Assembly: GCA_903910555.1 (NCBI GenBank)
Contig: CAIVZZ010000001.1
Span: 186,001 to 250,000 of the forward strand
DNA: 64,000 nucleotides
Direction: 5' to 3'
Source of the DNA: an uncultured Gemmatimonadota bacterium
Lineage (GTDB): Bacteria > Gemmatimonadota > Gemmatimonadetes > Gemmatimonadales > Gemmatimonadaceae
The position numbers and the translations under genes were made by a program. Shown piece by piece: positions 39,385-47,116 of this stretch. The stretch's first letter is position 1. Each line of letters opens with the position of its first letter. The notes beneath the pieces were generated by a model that was given only the letters and a program-made list of their open reading frames with translations, ran no database searches and was not told the DNA's origin.

Positions 39385-39497
39385 TGAAAGTTATTAGGAT
39401 GTGGCGCTGTGGGCCACCGGAAATATCCCGACAATGACACGCGGATAACCGTTCAACAAACGAACAGTTGCGAACGGCAGGTATATTCCGCGCTCGC

Positions 39498-40514
39498 ATG
39501 ACGACTCCGCTCATTCCGCCTTCGCCACACAGACGCCCAAACGGGCGATTCTTCAATCCGTGGCCCGGGTCGGTCGAACACGGTTTCGGTGACGCGCTGA
39601 AGTGGATGCTCGCGCGCGCGCGAACAGGAAAGCTCGGGTTTAACGGACGAGGAACACCGCCATCGGCGGTTCCTGCAGAACCAGTCGCAGCGTACGCAAA
39701 TCCGAATGAATGCCGCATCACCTGGATCGGCCACTCGAGCTTTCTCATTCAGATCGGCGGCTTCAACGTGCTCACCGATCCGGTGTTCGCCGAGCGCGCA
39801 TCGCCAGTGACCTTCGCGGGACCGCGTCGCATTTCGCCGCCGGGACTCGCGCTCGAATCACTGCCTCGTATCGATCTCGTGCTCCAGTCCCATAATCATT
39901 ACGATCATTTCGATGTCGTCGCGATTCGCGCGCTCGCGCGCCGCGCGCCAACGACCGTCTGGTGCGCACCCATCGGCCTCGCCGCGCCGCTCCGCAAACT
40001 CGGTGTCAAGCATGTGTCCGAATGCGATTGGTTCGATTCAGCCGAGCCGATCCCCGGCACGCGCGTCGAATGCATTCCCGCGCGACACTTTTCCGGCCGT
40101 TCGCTCACTGATCGCAACTCCACGCTCTGGTGCGGGTGGACGCTCCGCGCCGGAACAAAGAGAATTTATTTTGCCGGCGATTCCGCGTTCCATCCCGACT
40201 TCGCCGAGATTGCCCGGCGCAGCGGCCCATTCGACGCCGTGCTGATGCCGATCGGCGCATACGACCCTCGCTGGTTCATGAGCGCCGTGCACATGGATCC
40301 TGAGGAAGCCATCGCGGCGTTCGTCGCGCTGCGCTCAGCCCATCCTTCACATCCCTGCGTGATGGCCGCAATGCACTGGGGCACATTCGTGCTCACCGAC
40401 GAACCGGTTGACGAACCGCCGCGCCGCGCACGCGCTGCGTGGGAACAGCATCAGCTCGACGCGAATGCACTCTGGATTTTTGCGCCGGGCGAGACGAAAG
40501 TGATCGGCGCCTGA
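39498..40514 (+). CDS. MBL-fold hydrolase, NAPE-PLD/UlaG-like
   Basis: 338 residues. The metallo-beta-lactamase metal motif reads HNHYDHFD (HxHxDH), with HSSFLIQIGGFNVLTDPVF before it, ARHFSGRS and the GDSAFHPDF and AMHWGTF histidine/aspartate ligands after it. This layout, including the RRISPPG segment, is that of NAPE-PLD-like phospholipase D enzymes, which act on N-acyl phosphatidylethanolamine, though related members have other substrates. The ATG at 39498 lies 114 bases from the divergent desaturase gene, so a lipid-related role is possible. It converges with the usher gene, 7 bases apart. Confidence 0.85.
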   Translation: MTTPLIPPSPHRRPNGRFFNPWPGSVEHGFGDALKWMLARARTGKLGFNGRGTPPSAVPAEPVAAYANPNECRITWIGHSSFLIQIGGFNVLTDPVFAERASPVTFAGPRRISPPGLALESLPRIDLVLQSHNHYDHFDVVAIRALARRAPTTVWCAPIGLAAPLRKLGVKHVSECDWFDSAEPIPGTRVECIPARHFSGRSLTDRNSTLWCGWTLRAGTKRIYFAGDSAFHPDFAEIARRSGPFDAVLMPIGAYDPRWFMSAVHMDPEEAIAAFVALRSAHPSHPCVMAAMHWGTFVLTDEPVDEPPRRARAAWEQHQLDANALWIFAPGETKVIGA

Positions 40515-40521
40515 CCAACCG

Positions 40522-43101
40522 TCAGGGTCGCGCGACCACCACCGCCTGTACGCCGAGCACACGATCTCCGTTCTCCATCGCACGCACGACAATCGGCACA
40601 GGCGCCGCTGCGCCCTTCAGCGCGGCGAGATCGCGCGGATCGACAATGAGCGACCAGCGGCCGGGCTTCACGCCGAGGAATGAAAATCCACCATCGCTGA
40701 ACGTCGTCATGTCCATTCGACGTGACGTTCCGTTCTCCACAAGCGCGACACGTACACCGCCGAGTGGTTTGCCGCCGTCACGACTGTCGACGAGCGTTCC
40801 CTCGACAACGCCACCGGGAACGATCGCGACATCGAACTCCTGAAACCGATTTGGCCACGGCTCAAGCACCACGTGCTGCGCCTCTGCGGCCCAGAGCGGA
40901 GAATCGAGCGAGCTGATGTCGATCGCCAGCGCGACTGGTTCGAACGGCACGAGATCCCAGATGCGGTAGCGGCCCGAGGAGTCCGTCAGCGCATAAACCG
41001 AGCCGACGCGCACGAGCGCGCCCGCGATCGGCGTGTCGCCTGCATCGAACTTTCCGTTCACATTCGCATCGAGATACACGCGACCGGTCACGCCGCCGCG
41101 CTGGAGCGCCGGGCCCGGCGCGAGCATGATCTGTCCGGTGTGCGGATCCGTGAGGACGGAACCCGAAATAAAATTCGTTCCCGATCCGGATCCCGCACCG
41201 ATATTTGCCGTCGTGATCATTCGCGCCTGCGGTAAATCCGTCAGCACGCGCACCGTGTACTCGCCTGGAGTTCCTGCGCCCGACCAGGTTCCGCCGACTT
41301 CGACACGAAACCGGTTGTTGAACTGGCGCACGAGCGTCAGCGATGTCAGGCTCTCGCCCGCGTTCGATCGTTCGACGGTGCCGTACGCCAGCACCTTTCC
41401 GAGAACTGAACCGAGCGATGGGATCGGCAGTACAAACAAATTGACTCCGACCAGCGCCGATGACGTTGCACTGCCTGAAACGCCGTGCGTGGCATCCGTT
41501 TCGACGTATGGTGCGAGCTGGCCGTTCGGGAGCTGCATCGCCAGCGTCAGGCGCACGCGATCGTGCGCGCCGTCGTTCGCATCGATGCGCCGCGCGTCGA
41601 CGGTGAGATACGAACTTTGTCCCCCGAACGGCGGCCGCACGTAATACAGAATTCCATAGTGATCGCGCACGGTCTGTCCCGTGAGGATCTGCGATGCCGT
41701 ATCGTTGCCGGCGTATCGGCCACCGGTAAAGGTGAAGCTCTGCTCCAGCGATGGCTGCCAGCGCGCGAGCAGCGTCGTGCTTGCCAGCGCGAGCTGTTGG
41801 ACCGAGATGAATATCGCGTTGGTTGGATTGAGCGAAAAGTCGAAATACGGACGGCCGACGCGGCCAGTCGAATCGGTTTGCAGTAATTCAAATCCGGTCT
41901 CGATGCTCGCGCGCGTGGTCAACCCGACTCGCAGATCCGCATTGCCGGTGTATGCGCAGACATTGGTGTCCTCGCAGCGGCCACCAGACACCCCGTATTC
42001 GATTTTCCCCGGCGGCAGAAAATCTTGCGGGAAGATCTGAAAGAGCTGACTGAAACGACTCAGCTCGTCATGCGGGCCGTACGCAGTGAAATCAACGAGG
42101 TTGCTTCCATACGATACGGGAAGTGTGCGCACGAATCGTCCGTGGTGGTCGGTCGTATCCACGCCAACGAGCACCCCGTTGATGTAGCTCTCGACTTCAT
42201 AGCCATCACCAAGGTGCGCACCGTACGCCGCTTGACCAAAAAATGTCGGCCGCACAAAGGGCGCATTGGTGATCGAGAATCCTTTCACTTCTTCGAATCG
42301 CGTGCCCGTGATCGGCACATCGCCGAATCGCAGCTGTTTGACCCACGGATTGTCACGCCACACGCCGGTCCACGATGCCTGCGTTGTCGTGAACGATCCG
42401 GCCGACGATGTCGTGACATCGAGTGCGCCGCCGAGCAGCGTCACGCCGGCGCCCAGCGTGTAGCCCGGATCTTTGAATGGCTGGGCCAGTGACGTCGTGA
42501 GTCCGTAGTCGAGCACGAAGCCGTCGAGCAACGGACGCGACGGCGTCAATCGCGTCCCCACCGGCGGCAACGGACCCTCCGGCGGCGCGCTGACAAATCG
42601 CGACGCGGCGCGCACCACTCGATTCTCAGCGGGAAGTTCTTTGCCGCCGATCGCCGTGACCCGCAATTCGCTCCACACAATTTCAAATCGAATGCCGAGC
42701 CATTTTGCGAGTGGTGCACTCGCGGCGTACATCACGCCGTCGCGAGTGATCAGCGTGCCGGCGGCAATCGGGACAGCAGCGCCGTTCACCTGCACCGTTC
42801 CGCGCGCGGCATCAATCGCTACATGGCGTCCCGATGCGAGCGTGATGCGAATGACGGCCGCGTCGGTACGCTCGAATTTGAGATCGCCCTCGGTGAGCAG
42901 TGCGCCCACGGGGATCCACGCCTCCTGGCCTCCGCGGAATGCGTGCACGGTGGAACCGCCGACGTCTTTGACGCCAAGCTCAATGAGCACGGCCTCGAGC
43001 GAATCAGCGCGCAGGGCAGCCGGTGTCGTGACGGAAGCTGCGCCCTGCGCTTGCACCATCGACGCACCGAGCGCAGCCATGACGCATGCGCGGAACCACA
43101 T
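40522..43101 (-). CDS. usher-like outer-membrane protein with C-terminal SdrD-B/CarbopepD-like domains
   Basis: 859 residues. Signal peptide (to ~18), then an N-terminal beta-rich region (20-165) resembling copper-amine-oxidase-N/stalk domains (AWIPVGALLTEGDLKF), then a barrel region of usher type (FVLDYGLTTSL, RFGDVPITGTRFEEVKGFSITNAPF, FGQAAYGAHLGDGYEVESYINGVLVGV, RTLPVSYGSNLVDFTAYGP). From residue ~669 a SdrD-B-like domain starts (DANVNGKFDAGD, a calcium-binding pattern), followed by a second CarbopepD-like domain (~765-835). In chaperone-usher pili the usher is the outer-membrane assembly pore. It is the last gene of the pilus-like operon; the chaperone gene is 9 bases upstream. Confidence 0.8.
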   Translation of the reverse strand: MWFRACVMAALGASMVQAQGAASVTTPAALRADSLEAVLIELGVKDVGGSTVHAFRGGQEAWIPVGALLTEGDLKFERTDAAVIRITLASGRHVAIDAARGTVQVNGAAVPIAAGTLITRDGVMYAASAPLAKWLGIRFEIVWSELRVTAIGGKELPAENRVVRAASRFVSAPPEGPLPPVGTRLTPSRPLLDGFVLDYGLTTSLAQPFKDPGYTLGAGVTLLGGALDVTTSSAGSFTTTQASWTGVWRDNPWVKQLRFGDVPITGTRFEEVKGFSITNAPFVRPTFFGQAAYGAHLGDGYEVESYINGVLVGVDTTDHHGRFVRTLPVSYGSNLVDFTAYGPHDELSRFSQLFQIFPQDFLPPGKIEYGVSGGRCEDTNVCAYTGNADLRVGLTTRASIETGFELLQTDSTGRVGRPYFDFSLNPTNAIFISVQQLALASTTLLARWQPSLEQSFTFTGGRYAGNDTASQILTGQTVRDHYGILYYVRPPFGGQSSYLTVDARRIDANDGAHDRVRLTLAMQLPNGQLAPYVETDATHGVSGSATSSALVGVNLFVLPIPSLGSVLGKVLAYGTVERSNAGESLTSLTLVRQFNNRFRVEVGGTWSGAGTPGEYTVRVLTDLPQARMITTANIGAGSGSGTNFISGSVLTDPHTGQIMLAPGPALQRGGVTGRVYLDANVNGKFDAGDTPIAGALVRVGSVYALTDSSGRYRIWDLVPFEPVALAIDISSLDSPLWAAEAQHVVLEPWPNRFQEFDVAIVPGGVVEGTLVDSRDGGKPLGGVRVALVENGTSRRMDMTTFSDGGFSFLGVKPGRWSLIVDPRDLAALKGAAAPVPIVVRAMENGDRVLGVQAVVVARP

Positions 43102-43110
43102 CGTCGCGTG

Positions 43111-43962
43111 CTATGGCCGTCGCGGGGGGACGGCCACCTCGATCGAGTCGCGCACCGCTGGTGACTGCACAAGCGTGGAGCGGGGCAGGTCGCGGCGCTC
43201 GCTCTTGAGCTCGACATGCAACCGGTATTTCCCGGGCGGAACAGAATCAAGCGGCAGAATAAAACTCGGATCGACCTGATGGTACACACCCATAGGCCGC
43301 TCGAACTCGGCGACAGTCTTTCCGTCGGCGCCGACGAATTTTCCGGTCAGTGTTCCAAGCCACGCGGCGTTGCCGTGCGGATCGAGCTGCACGCGCGTGA
43401 TCAAGGAGTCGCCGTGCACGGCCGTGCGCAAATGGCTCGCGGCGACCGTCGCGGTGACTGTGCCTTTGCGGTACAGCAGCGTCGTGATCGTGCGGATCTC
43501 GACGTTGAGCGATGCGGTGATTTTGGTCGTGTCGGGCGAGGCCAGGGCAATCGCCGCAGCCTTCGACGAGACCACGATACGGCTCCAGTACTCGCGGTCC
43601 GGAAGATCCGCCGGCGGACGCGCTAGAAACCGGACAGTTTGCTTCTGTCCCGGCAGCACCGTCGCCCGGCGCGGGTACGCATCAATCCAACCGGCCGCCG
43701 ACGGTTCGCCGGCTGGCGGATGTTCCATCGTGTTGAGGTCGACATTGCCGAGCGAATCCGAGACGGGGAATCCGTAGAGCAATGAAACGGAGACTTCGAC
43801 TGGTACTGATGACGGATTGTAGAGATCGAGCGAGCCGCCGCGCGCGCGATGATCGATGACGACAACCGGCGGCGCCACGGTAACGCTCTGTGCCGCGGCC
43901 GAAGCGAGCGGCGCCAGCAGTGCGATGAGCAGTGCGATGAGAAGTGCGAAACGTTTCATCAC
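43111..43962 (-). CDS. PapD-like periplasmic chaperone
   Basis: 283 residues: signal peptide (1-24, ending SAAAQ), then two immunoglobulin-like domains. The G1-type strand SLDLYNPSSVPVEVSVSL and the segment AYPRRATVLPGQKQTVRFLARPPADLPDREYWSRIVV match fimbrial chaperones, where the basic residues anchor the subunit C-terminus. The second domain (~165-283) ends in a proline/arginine-rich tail. It is longer than classical PapD (~220). It overlaps the upstream DUF4402 gene by 4 bases (ATGA) and is followed by the usher, so subunit, chaperone and usher are made from one transcript. Confidence 0.82.
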   Translation of the reverse strand: MMKRFALLIALLIALLAPLASAAAQSVTVAPPVVVIDHRARGGSLDLYNPSSVPVEVSVSLLYGFPVSDSLGNVDLNTMEHPPAGEPSAAGWIDAYPRRATVLPGQKQTVRFLARPPADLPDREYWSRIVVSSKAAAIALASPDTTKITASLNVEIRTITTLLYRKGTVTATVAASHLRTAVHGDSLITRVQLDPHGNAAWLGTLTGKFVGADGKTVAEFERPMGVYHQVDPSFILPLDSVPPGKYRLHVELKSERRDLPRSTLVQSPAVRDSIEVAVPPRRP

Positions 43963-44426
43963 TGCGTGGTTACCGAGAGAGAGAGATTGCCCGAGTATCT
44001 GCCGCTGATAAGCTGGCGCGACGGCCGCGCCATGCCGCCAATCATGACGACGACACGTCCGCTCTGCGGCAACTTCAACGAGAACGGCGCGCGCGGATCA
44101 AACGGGATGTTGTCCGCGCTCGACTCGTTGATGGAGTATGCCGCAGACTGCGGTCCGAAGCTCACACCGACGCGACCGCCGCCTTCACCAACGATTTGTC
44201 CCGGAAGCGTGAACGAGAGTTGAACCGTGGCGCCGGCCGGTCCGATAATTTCAAACATCGCGGTCGCTTTGCCGTCAGCCGGCCCCATCGTCGCGTCGAC
44301 TCCGCCGATAAGCGAGCCGAACTCAAGCTGGCGGAGAACATTCACTCGCAGAGGCGCGGGAGTCTGGCCGCGCAGCGCTGGCGCCGCGATCAGCAGCAGG
44401 GCGAAGAGGACGAAGCGCGGGCGCAT
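43959..44426 (-). CDS. DUF4402 subunit protein (minor pilin-like)
   Basis: 155 residues from the ATG at 44426: signal peptide (MRPRFVLFALLLIAAPALRGQ) then a beta-sandwich domain of the DUF4402 family (RQLEFGSLIGGVDATMGP, ATVQLSFTLPGQIVG, GRYSGNLSLSVTTQ). DUF4402 proteins accompany PapD-like chaperones and act as presumed fimbrial subunits. The C-terminus, with alternating hydrophobic residues (NLSLSVTTQ), is as expected for a strand used for donor-strand complementation. It is 24 residues longer upstream if a non-preferred start is used. Its stop overlaps the chaperone start. Confidence 0.78.
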   Translation of the reverse strand: MRPRFVLFALLLIAAPALRGQTPAPLRVNVLRQLEFGSLIGGVDATMGPADGKATAMFEIIGPAGATVQLSFTLPGQIVGEGGGRVGVSFGPQSAAYSINESSADNIPFDPRAPFSLKLPQSGRVVVMIGGMARPSRQLISGRYSGNLSLSVTTQ

Positions 44427-44472
44427 GAGTGTGAAGTTCGCGAAAAGCGCTGTCCGGCGGTACCCGAGACGA

Positions 44473-44500
44473 CCGTGCCCGCCACAGTGGGCGGGCACGG
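44473..44500 (-). terminator. GC-rich stem-loop between major and minor subunit genes
   Basis: A perfect 11-bp stem CCGTGCCCGCC / GGCGGGCACGG (44473-44483 and 44490-44500), 6-nt loop, without a T run. Its position, right after the first subunit gene, fits an attenuator or mRNA-stabilising hairpin that would raise major-subunit expression above chaperone and usher. Confidence 0.7.
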
Positions 44501-44523
44501 ATACGTCTGGATCTCGGAGAGAA

Positions 44524-45048
44524 CTACGGAGCTGTGACCGTGATGGTCATGTTCGCCGTGTACGAACCAACAACCTGGCTGGCCGACGGAGCGGCGAGCA
44601 CTGCACCGATCCACAGATAGCCGTTGCCCGTGCCGCTCAGCGCCTGACCGGCGATCGTTCCGCCGCTCGTGATCGCGGTCGGCGAGCAAGCGGTGTTCGT
44701 GTTGTTCTGGCTGTAGCAGTATCCGTAGCCGTTGATGCCAATCGTTGCCGCGCTCGGACCTGCGAGCGTCGACGGAAGCGTCGTCGCCGTGATCGTGATG
44801 CCCTGATTGTTCGCGCCGACGATGTTCACCTTACCGGCCCCGGAAGCGCTGGCGAGAATCGTCGAGCCCGAGCCGCCCTGAATGACGGCGGGGAAGTTCA
44901 GGTTGCCGCCGTTCGTCGCAGCGAGCGATGCCGTGACCGTTGCGCTCACGGAAACCGTGGCGACCGACGTCAACTGCGCGCTTGCGACGGTGCTCGTCAT
45001 CGCGACTGCCGCGACGGTAAGGGCGAGCTTTGCAGAGAAACCCTTCAT
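44524..45048 (-). CDS. DUF4402 subunit protein (major pilin-like)
   Basis: 174 residues: signal peptide (1-24, TVASAQ), then a Ser/Thr/Ala/Gly-rich beta-sandwich with NLNFPAVIQGGSGSTILA, ITITATTLPSTLAGPSA and the final strand GSYTANMTITVTAP. Two cysteines (CYSQNNTNTAC) could form a disulfide. It has a very good ribosome site (AGGAGG, 7 bases before the ATG) and is the first gene after the AT-rich leader, consistent with being the abundant structural subunit. The second subunit gene follows after a hairpin. Confidence 0.82.
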   Translation of the reverse strand: MKGFSAKLALTVAAVAMTSTVASAQLTSVATVSVSATVTASLAATNGGNLNFPAVIQGGSGSTILASASGAGKVNIVGANNQGITITATTLPSTLAGPSAATIGINGYGYCYSQNNTNTACSPTAITSGGTIAGQALSGTGNGYLWIGAVLAAPSASQVVGSYTANMTITVTAP

Positions 45049-45416
45049 ATGTACTTCCTCCTAGAAGACTATCTATTGGGTGGCGATCCATGCGGTCGGA
45101 GCGCTATCGCGCGCCTCCGTGATTATTCCCTATGGAAAAGCTGTGCCACTCGCTAGAAAATGTCCAGTGTCACGTATCAAGACATTTCGGCACGGACCGC
45201 ATCGCGGCAACATAAGTCATTCCAGTATAGTCATTAAGTCTCCAATAGTAGGACCATGCATAAAGACCGACACTTTTCTATCCGGCGCTTCGCCACCATC
45301 AGACATTACTTCTCATATGCATTGTTTTCGGTCGCTCAGAAAGATTTTTTCGGGCATATTTATCAAAATGGCTTGAAAGCGTCCGCTGCTCTTACTCATG
45401 CTATAGCAATATGCAA
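45049..45416. other. 368-base AT-rich leader between the pilus-like operon and an alpha/beta hydrolase gene
   Basis: No gene. It is clearly richer in A/T than its surroundings and contains TATTTATCAAAAT, CAATATGCAATTAT and many short stretches. On the minus strand it carries a sigma-54-like element, a hairpin in the leader (GGAG...CTCC, 45095-45118) and a strong ribosome site. No c-di-GMP (GEMM) riboswitch pattern was recognised on reading. Confidence 0.6.
45133..45148 (-). promoter_or_regulatory. candidate sigma-54 promoter of the pilus-like operon
   Basis: On the minus strand TGGCACAGCTTTTCCA matches the -24 element TGGCAC exactly and the -12 element TTGC in three of four bases (TTCC), with correct spacing. 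It lies ~85 bases before the major-subunit ATG. Confidence 0.35.
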
Positions 45417-46310
45417 TTATCGTGGCGTTTTGCGGTTGTCGATCAGTCGCAATGCAAGCCAATCGCCAACGAGTTGCTCGATCGCTTCGTGGCCATAATC
45501 GACCGTCACGACATGCCCGTTCCCCGTTGTCCAGTGGAGAGTTTTGTCGCTCGATCCGATCAGCCCAAACGCCTCTGCGGCCGCCGCCGCCGGGATCCTG
45601 TTGTCCTCACGCGACTGCACCACGAGCACAGGCTGCCGCACGCTAGCGAGTGATTTCCGCGCGAGCAGCACGACCTTCTCGAGCTCCACCACCACGCGTG
45701 GTGTCGAGACGCGATATGCGATCATCGCACCCGCGGCAACAGGATCGTGCACAGATCTCGAACCGCCGCCCGTGATGTACTTCGCGCCGAACGACGCGAC
45801 CGGCGCGATAAAATGCAGCAACTCGAGTGGAATCGACGCGCGAAGATACGGAGCGAATCCAACCACCGCGCGCACGCCCGGCTGCTCGGCCGCGAGAATG
45901 AATGCGAGCGCGCCACCCATCGAGAGACCGCCAACCGCAATTTCGGTATGCTCTGCTTGAAGCTCGGCGAGCGCAGCCCGTGCCGCGCTCTCCCATGCAC
46001 TCGCACGCGCGGCCGCCCAATCCTGCAGTCGCCGGCCATGACCGGGCAGCAGCGGCACATACACGGTCCACCCGCGCGCGTTCAGCGCCGCGGCCACCAG
46101 CGCCATCGACTGCGGCGAGTCGTTGTAACCGTGCAGCAGCAACACGGCGCTGTCGAGCGTCCCCTTCAGCCGGATGGGTTCCGCTCCGATGATGATGCCG
46201 TCGGCGTCCAGCGGATGCGCGCGGATGAACGCGCGCTCCTGATGCCGCGCGATCGCACCGCGCAGTGCCCACCACACTGCAATCGCGACGGCGATCCAGA
46301 CGACTGTCAC
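45417..46310 (-). CDS. alpha/beta hydrolase
   Basis: 297 residues from the GTG at 46310. An N-terminal transmembrane helix (TVVWIAVAIAVWWALRG) is followed by an alpha/beta-hydrolase fold: VLLLHGYNDSP (oxyanion region), nucleophile serine in GGLSMGGALAF, acid in SREDNRIP and histidine in TVDYGHE. It is probably a membrane-anchored carboxylesterase or monoacylglycerol-lipase-like enzyme. The GTG overlaps the glycosyltransferase stop by 4 bases (GTGA), and an upstream start at 46346 lies inside that gene. It is the last gene of a four-gene operon. Confidence 0.87.
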   Translation of the reverse strand: MTVVWIAVAIAVWWALRGAIARHQERAFIRAHPLDADGIIIGAEPIRLKGTLDSAVLLLHGYNDSPQSMALVAAALNARGWTVYVPLLPGHGRRLQDWAAARASAWESAARAALAELQAEHTEIAVGGLSMGGALAFILAAEQPGVRAVVGFAPYLRASIPLELLHFIAPVASFGAKYITGGGSRSVHDPVAAGAMIAYRVSTPRVVVELEKVVLLARKSLASVRQPVLVVQSREDNRIPAAAAAEAFGLIGSSDKTLHWTTGNGHVVTVDYGHEAIEQLVGDWLALRLIDNRKTPR

Positions 46311-47116
46311 GCGTTTGCCAAATGACGGTCGACGCCACGCGCACACCGCGTGACGCCCTCACGAACAACTTTCAGCACAAGTTCAAAATTCGCAGCGTCT
46401 GCATCCGTCGGACGCGTGCGATGATGTAGATGATACGAGACTGCCGCGAACTTCAAATTTCGCCGCTTCACTCCGGAGTTCATCAGGCGCGCAACGAGCT
46501 CGGTATCCTCGCGTCCCCATCCTTCCAGCTCTTCGTTGTACCCGTTCACGCGCACAATGTCATCACGCCAATACGAGATGTTGCATCCGCGCGTCCGATA
46601 AATCGGTCCCGGCTCGCCGCGCGAAAAACGTGAAAGAAAAGGCGCGTGGATTCCGTTCACTCGATTGCGAACGTTTCTCGAGAGCGCACCTGCGACCCGT
46701 TTTCCGGCCGCGAGCGTGCGCGCGGTTGCGGCTTCCCCAAGCATCATGCGGCTCCCCTGGATGTACCAGCCGCGCTGCGCGAAACGCAGATGCGAGCGAA
46801 TGAACTCGGGATGGATCAGCATGTCGCCGTCGATGGCGATCAAATACTCTCCGCCGGCGCGCGCCATCGCCTCATTGAGGATGCGTCCCTTCCGGAAACC
46901 CTCGTCCTCCTGCCAGACGTGCCGCAGCGGCACCGGAAAGGTGGCGGCCTCGCGCGCGACAAACTCCCGCGTGTCTGCGCGCGATCCGTCGTCGGCAATG
47001 AGAACCTCGCCGGGAAGTACCGTCTGCGCACGAACTGTCGCGAGCACCAGCGCCAGCGCTTCTTTCCAGTTGTACGTGGCGATGATGAGGCTGTTGCTCG
47101 CAGATCCCGCAATCAT
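46307..47116 (-). CDS. family 2 glycosyltransferase with GT7-like C-terminal segment
   Basis: 269 residues. The GT-A core shows SLIIATYNWKEALALVL, IADDGSRADT and the metal-binding AIDGDMLIHPEF; the C-terminal segment GCNISYWRDDIVRVNGYNEELEGWGREDTEL matches the galactosyltransferase/chondroitin-polymerase-type end (Glyco_transf_7C). It probably transfers a hexose or HexNAc to a glycan acceptor at the cytoplasmic face; acceptor unknown. It overlaps both neighbours by 4 bases, so it sits in the middle of the operon. Confidence 0.9.
   Translation of the reverse strand: MIAGSASNSLIIATYNWKEALALVLATVRAQTVLPGEVLIADDGSRADTREFVAREAATFPVPLRHVWQEDEGFRKGRILNEAMARAGGEYLIAIDGDMLIHPEFIRSHLRFAQRGWYIQGSRMMLGEAATARTLAAGKRVAGALSRNVRNRVNGIHAPFLSRFSRGEPGPIYRTRGCNISYWRDDIVRVNGYNEELEGWGREDTELVARLMNSGVKRRNLKFAAVSYHLHHRTRPTDADAANFELVLKVVREGVTRCARGVDRHLANA

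Follow-up and report, generated by a model that had tools for sequence, protein, structure and literature searches.

A divergent, apparently non-classical chaperone-usher locus with DUF4402-type subunits in an uncultured Gemmatimonadota bacterium

Introduction

Chaperone-usher (CU) pili are known mainly from Proteobacteria. Their periplasmic chaperones help to distinguish the described classes: a classical chaperone carries a basic anchor pair in domain 1 (R8 and K112 in PapD, R20 and K139 in Caf1M), and a chaperone of the archaic or alternative class carries an arginine in strand F1 (R89 in CsuC). The archaic type has also been reported from Cyanobacteria and Deinococcus-Thermus (PMC4654587). 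Among the simpler fibres, SafD caps SafA polymers (PMC5700814), and the fibres of enteroaggregative Escherichia coli (EAEC) have a single minor capping subunit, AggB or AafB, without an N-terminal extension (PMC5029526). Here we describe a locus in a 64-kb stretch of DNA, referred to below in its whole length as the window, which is part of contig 1 of the 3.2-Mb genome of an uncultured Gemmatimonadota bacterium. By predicted fold, gene order and the logic of its subunits the locus is a CU system, and we regard it as very probable that its four genes form a complete, self-contained and divergent pathway of non-classical type, for which we propose a donor-strand mechanism.

Results

A four-gene operon and its relatives

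Four open reading frames (ORFs) follow one another on the minus strand between positions 40522 and 45048, namely subunit 1 (44524-45048; 174 aa, with GGAGG upstream and a signal peptide that ends before Q25), subunit 2 (43959-44426; 155 aa from its ATG), the chaperone (43111-43962, starting at 43962 or 43959; 282-283 aa) and the usher (40522-43101; 859 aa). An earlier reading of the window, made without database searches (the sequence-only reading), had proposed just these four consecutive genes; it drew the locus as 40522-45416, but the genes end at 45048, and 45049-45416 is non-coding. It had also described ATGA coupling of the minor subunit to the chaperone. The two genes do overlap, by 4 nt from a GTG start or by 1 nt (TGATG) from the ATG, but the junction is GTGATG and not literally ATGA; a true 4-nt ATG overlap is found at this junction in relatives such as L036 and L038. 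A gap of 9 nt separates the chaperone and usher genes.

The four genes are more than a chance succession, because profiles built without the window pick exactly these among its 235 ORFs (E values of 4e-221 and 1.7e-101, 5.7e-36 for subunit 2 and 5.8e-27 for subunit 1), and because their order is kept in relatives. A sample of 395 genomes of Gemmatimonadota was searched at the protein level with the usher; weak matches confined to residues ~660-840 were ignored, since they reflect shared C-terminal modules only. Full-length usher relatives occur in many families of the phylum, and in 32 of the forty loci that were fetched with their surroundings the subunit or subunits, the chaperone and the usher stand together in the same order and on the same strand. 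Some loci have one or two extra subunits upstream, others a subunit between chaperone and usher, and at L059-L061, L070 and L072 the usher has no other system genes beside it. One genus has a split system, with the usher in L060, L061 and L070 (genomes G021, G023 and G190) and the chaperone and a subunit on another contig (L123, L124 and L126). The chaperone profile matches 89 of the 395 genomes at E 0.001, 75 of them at E < 1e-60. Similar operons with the same gene order are present in Zixibacteria, Ignavibacteria and Chlorobi and on plasmids of the proteobacteria Sphingopyxis, Novosphingobium and Polaromonas; synteny, which the sequence-only reading had offered as a check, is thus kept across Gemmatimonadota and beyond the phylum. 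A tblastn search of plasmids with a chaperone gave no match.

Profile libraries name the relatives more readily than the window proteins themselves. Pfam finds in the four window proteins only CarboxypepD_reg (2.9e-11) and SdrD_B (3.7e-8), both in the C-terminal part of the usher, and NCBIfam gives a weak fimbrial-chaperone match (E 0.005). The Pfam family DUF4402 (PF14352) does not match the window subunits at E up to 1, but it does match 59 of the 68 relatives that occupy the same place in their operons (best 1.3e-9); PapD_N matches 10 of 35 related chaperones (best 1.1e-6) and Usher (PF00577) 2 of 36 related ushers (best 0.0014). The labels DUF4402, PapD-like and usher-like, which had been given to the window proteins from their letters, therefore come from relatives and from predicted structures. 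Searches of PDB sequences with the family profiles found no CU protein; the only matches of the chaperone profile, to an unrelated plant protein, were short and borderline (E 0.016 and 0.025) and were dismissed as chance hits.

An N-terminal extension rule for the subunits

What sets the subunits of one locus apart? We measured the N-terminal extension as the number of residues that separate the signal-peptide end (alignment column Q25) from a conserved LxF motif. This number is 24-29 (median 25) for subunits encoded farther upstream and mostly 25-28 for those between chaperone and usher, whereas the median for the subunit immediately upstream of the chaperone is 13; the difference has a Mann-Whitney p of 4e-11, which is only a guide since the sequences are related. 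Taken over all but one subunit per locus, the median is 25-26. Two or more subunits could be measured in 26 loci, and each of these loci has exactly one short subunit, from which ~12 N-terminal residues are missing (11-17 residues remain in 24 loci, and 20 in L054 and L062). The short subunit almost always adjoins the chaperone, but in L068 it has swapped places with another subunit, and the rule therefore holds locus by locus, whatever the position. The residues that the short subunit lacks alternate between small and hydrophobic, for example ASITATATV in many relatives and SVATVSVSATV in the window, as would be expected of a donor strand.

The operon thus contains exported subunits of which those that appear to polymerise carry an N-terminal extension, as in a CU pathway. 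On the strength of the one-short-subunit rule and of the capping precedents in EAEC and Saf fibres, we propose that subunit 2, which is DUF4402-type and lacks the extension, is the probable single-domain tip or capping subunit, and that subunit 1, likewise DUF4402-type, is the probable major, polymerising subunit of the shaft, with its extension TSVATVSVSATVT as the putative donor strand. More generally, the extension rule is what one would expect of a polymer built by donor-strand exchange and capped at its tip by a single-domain subunit. In some relatives a gene downstream of the usher encodes a protein of 350-361 aa with DUF4402-type matches (L063:8604-9656 and L064:4219-5304); these are possibly two-domain tip proteins.

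The same subunits could be served by CU machinery that builds a capsule-like or amorphous coat in the manner of the Caf1 F1 antigen or spore-coat U, subunit 2 being a non-binding minor cap. Subunit 2 has no separate adhesin domain, no further subunit of the DUF4402-type family was found in the genome of the window, so that two subunits are all it has, and 3 of the 68 related subunits match the spore-coat-U domain, which is typical of archaic CU subunits (best 0.0017). The three to five subunits kept by several relatives nevertheless suggest a structured fibre, and we consider a coat unlikely, if worth bearing in mind. Subunit 2 could also sit at the base as a terminator of the PapH or FimI kind, as it is minor, single-domain and encoded beside the chaperone. 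Such terminators, however, depend on an N-terminal extension for their entry into the fibre. In each locus exactly one subunit is without it, and such a subunit can only be the first, as are AggB and AafB (PMC5029526), which makes a terminator improbable and leaves the tip as our preferred place for subunit 2.

Chaperone type

The chaperone model (predicted local distance difference test score, pLDDT, 93.1) has CfaA, SafB, CsuC and EcpB as its first Foldseek matches, and CU chaperones fill nearly all top rows of the VIA structure comparison. By this model the protein is a two-domain, PapD-like periplasmic chaperone, although the fold alone is not unique to such chaperones: the CU classes are not separated in the VIA ranking (Z 14.4 to 12), in which the scores of WxL-interacting proteins come close to theirs.

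A trial alignment of 14 chaperones was too diverse. The columns of the classical anchor pair were located by position offset from the VIA comparison. In the family, columns 32-35 hold A, V, T, H or P and column 161 holds G, P, A, T or S; there is no R or K among the residues tabulated, so that the classical anchor pair is absent. R128, by contrast, is invariant in all 35 chaperones and lies in the strand before G1, where the archaic and alternative classes have their strand F1 arginine. The program hhalign, with scores judged against shuffled sequences (60 for FimD, 100 for EcpB, EcpA and FimA), puts R128 on EcpB R89. Taken by itself this alignment is weak, since 2 of 100 shuffles score as high. 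In domain 2, Y227 (33 of 35) and R256 (35 of 35) are candidate counterparts, unsuperposed, of the archaic or alternative anchors Y196 and R174 of CsuC. It is likely, though not proven, that R128 is a strand-F anchor of the archaic or alternative type. Only three things speak for the non-classical placement: the arginine in F1, the absence of the classical pair and the order of the fold matches.

An ordinary classical operon of the FimC/FimD type might look odd through divergence alone, and fold and domain order are indeed shared with FimD and FimC. FimD is moreover the only reference clearly matched by sequence: the usher profile aligns to it over residues 189-410 with a score of 38, above all 60 shuffles (maximum 24), and hhalign comparisons with EcpA, FimA, EcpB, FimC and EcpC are not clearly above shuffled sequences. 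With the basic anchor pair absent at the corresponding positions and an invariant R128 in strand F1 instead, we find the classical assignment quite hard to sustain.

Usher architecture

The usher model (pLDDT 90.7) comprises an N-terminal periplasmic domain (aa ~33-172, 42586-43005), a beta-barrel (aa ~190-665, 41107-42534) with strands in the region of an inserted plug (~288-345), and two C-terminal sandwich domains, the first SdrD_B-like (aa 669-745, 40867-41097) and the second CarboxypepD_reg-like (aa 760-859, 40525-40824). The top 18 Foldseek matches are all FimD or PapC (E 1.3e-25 to 2.3e-10), and the VIA comparison gives Z 23.2 for FimD and no more than 15.9 for any other barrel. Judged by its model, the barrel protein is an outer-membrane usher with plug and C-terminal domains. 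The sequence-only reading had spoken of unusual ends, which holds for the families that the C-terminal domains score and not for the overall layout, which is that of FimD and PapC. That the barrel is a porin or secretion channel releasing DUF4402 monomers, and the PapD-like protein a chaperone for the periplasm at large, would suit an usher that Pfam does not recognise and whose C-terminal domains are common extracellular modules, but FimD/PapC stand far above other barrels in both structure comparisons, a plug and two C-terminal domains are predicted, and the extension rule fits polymerisation, so that this reading is scarcely credible.

Two further features of the usher family may be mentioned. 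In some relatives the N-terminal domain is Cu_amine_oxidN1-like (1.7e-5 in L111, residues 44-140), and cysteines at residues 376 and 382 (~41956-41978) are nearly invariant in the family, where they perhaps form a family-specific disulphide in the barrel region.

Hairpin, leader region and genomic context

A hairpin at 44473-44500 (minus strand; 11 perfect pairs and a 6-nt loop) lies between the major-subunit gene and the remainder of the operon, and the 64 kb contain 12 perfect stems with 10 or more pairs, its own included. The region between the major-subunit gene and the next gene was folded for 18 loci (gaps of 75-136 nt), and in 16 of them the fold beats dinucleotide shuffles by more than 2 standard deviations (z -4.2 and -4.5 in the window); the hairpin sequences vary between families and the position is kept. 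By analogy, the hairpin may keep the major subunit in excess. The analogue is the pap operon, in which a hairpin has this effect, an arrangement that we did not find in the reviews searched. Upstream of subunit 1, the non-coding 45049-45416, which reaches the stop of the upstream hydrolase gene, is the putative leader and promoter region of the operon and is A+T-rich (46.5% G+C against 62% around it). Promoter and terminator scans of the locus were near or below chance level; a single weak sigma-70-like match at 45149-45122 is not evidence by itself.

The operon is flanked by a gene for a metallo-beta-lactamase-fold protein, so assigned by sequence (39468-40514, plus strand), which lies outside the system, and by an alpha/beta hydrolase gene (45417-46346, minus strand), which is probably outside it. 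In ten congeners these genes are convergent with their last aligned codons ~12-54 bp apart, whereas in the window they are 4.9 kb apart; in G086, of another genus, they also abut (4 bp), and that genome has a CU operon elsewhere. Eighteen genomes of the genus were compared, and a strong chaperone match is seen in that of the window alone. Because the flanking genes abut in congeners, the simplest reading is that the operon was probably acquired by insertion between two convergent genes, which would form its left and right borders. A simple insertion does not sit easily with two other genera (G134 and G393; G080, G122 and G352) in which a distance of 0.4 to 6 kb separates the hydrolase and the CU operon. 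The same hydrolase subfamily stands beside CU operons in three genera (the window, L047:2437-3348, L053 and L055), and these operons are not nearest relatives; the hydrolase site may be a recurrent insertion place, or the linkage may be old and lost elsewhere. In the trees the window clusters with two loci from a different genus of the same family (98/96 for the chaperone, 95/76 for the usher), and families are intermixed. Repeats in the locus are short chance-like families, none of which marks insertion ends. ARAGORN calls a tRNA-Arg at 46210-46286, inside the hydrolase gene; Rfam has no tRNA there, and the call is probably false.

A second, different CU-like operon is present on contig 27 of the same genome (L119:1544-6176; also L120, L121 and L122). 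It encodes two small exported proteins without Pfam match, a chaperone-like protein of 270 aa, which the chaperone profile matches at E 1e-13, and a protein of ~910-935 aa with NEW3/immunoglobulin (Ig)-like and CarboxypepD_reg domains that is probably a barrel. At least three congeners also have the chaperone-like gene.

Discussion

The chaperone-usher interpretation that the sequence-only reading drew from family knowledge has found support in the profile matches of relatives, the predicted folds and the conserved gene order. Several observations weigh against it. The window's own usher and chaperone match neither Pfam Usher (PF00577) nor PapD_N, although some relatives match one or the other; DUF4402 has no solved relative by PDB sequence search; EcpB, EcpA and FimA are weakly linked by sequence, with 1-3 of 100 shuffles scoring as high; and the usher N-terminal domain is unmatched to that of FimD, its boundary resting on the model.

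How would such a pathway work? We propose that both subunits, whose signal peptides are seen, are exported to the periplasm by Sec. Each would be an incomplete Ig-like pilin to which the chaperone lends a strand, as its PapD-like fold and knowledge of the family suggest. Subunit 2, having no extension, would start the chain and so come to lie at the fibre tip. Subunit 1 would then add repeatedly, its N-terminal strand taking the place of the one that the chaperone had lent to the subunit before it (donor-strand exchange), and the thread would leave through the usher barrel once the plug has swung aside. The hairpin after the first gene could provide the major subunit in excess of the minor proteins, through mRNA protection or partial termination. 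The expected product, comparable to Saf, Afa/Dr or AAF fibres, is thin and mostly homopolymeric and ends in a single-domain cap; it might serve attachment or biofilm formation.

Tentatively, and with more doubt than conviction, we suggest that the loci of Gemmatimonadota and other members of the Fibrobacteres-Chlorobi-Bacteroidetes (FCB) group, together with their proteobacterial plasmid relatives, make up a separate CU class beside the classical, alternative and archaic ones, with its own usher modules, DUF4402 pilins and an adhesin-less single-domain tip, spread laterally and missed as profile libraries lack its usher. Open-access papers yielded nothing on DUF4402, an absence that is not proof of novelty; there, chaperone-usher and Gemmatimonad occur together only in papers without bearing on the subject, and chaperone-usher and Zixibacteria in none. 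A CU pathway missed by profile libraries thus occurs in about one fifth of the sampled Gemmatimonadota genomes, and in other FCB phyla, and its usher genes go unrecognised there; the pathway offers a candidate attachment organelle for these soil and groundwater lineages and a wider base for reconstructing the origin of CU pathways. In its smallest version, with two single-domain subunits of which one should be unable to donate a strand, it could be a simple system for testing what a CU fibre needs.

Finally, we compare the locus with known systems. It resembles archaic and alternative CU systems (Csu of Acinetobacter, ECP and CFA/I of E. coli) in the chaperone folds of CfaA, CsuC and EcpB and in having no classical anchor pair, and it differs from them in that there is no significant sequence link to EcpB or EcpC, the subunits are DUF4402-type and not CsuA/B- or CfaB-type, and the window has no two-domain tip adhesin. 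With the Saf, Afa/Dr and AAF polyadhesins it shares a major polymerising subunit and an extension-less single-domain minor cap (PMC5700814, PMC5029526), but those enterobacterial systems use classical FGL chaperones. The chaperone of the window, in contrast, appears non-classical, and there is no sequence relationship between the subunits. Type 1 and P pili (FimCD, PapCD) have the same usher layout of N-domain, plugged barrel and two C-terminal sandwich domains; identity is ~12%, the C-terminal domains belong to other families, and there is here no FimH-like adhesin and no fimbrial recombinase or regulator. Likewise, the plasmid operons of Sphingopyxis, Novosphingobium and Polaromonas have the same gene order, and their ushers match the family profile at 6e-85, 5e-72 and 2e-94, though they are distant on the trees. 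The names given to their products are DUF4402 protein, molecular chaperone, and carboxypeptidase regulatory-like or hypothetical protein, and it is because of these last two annotations that the plasmid ushers go unrecognised as ushers.

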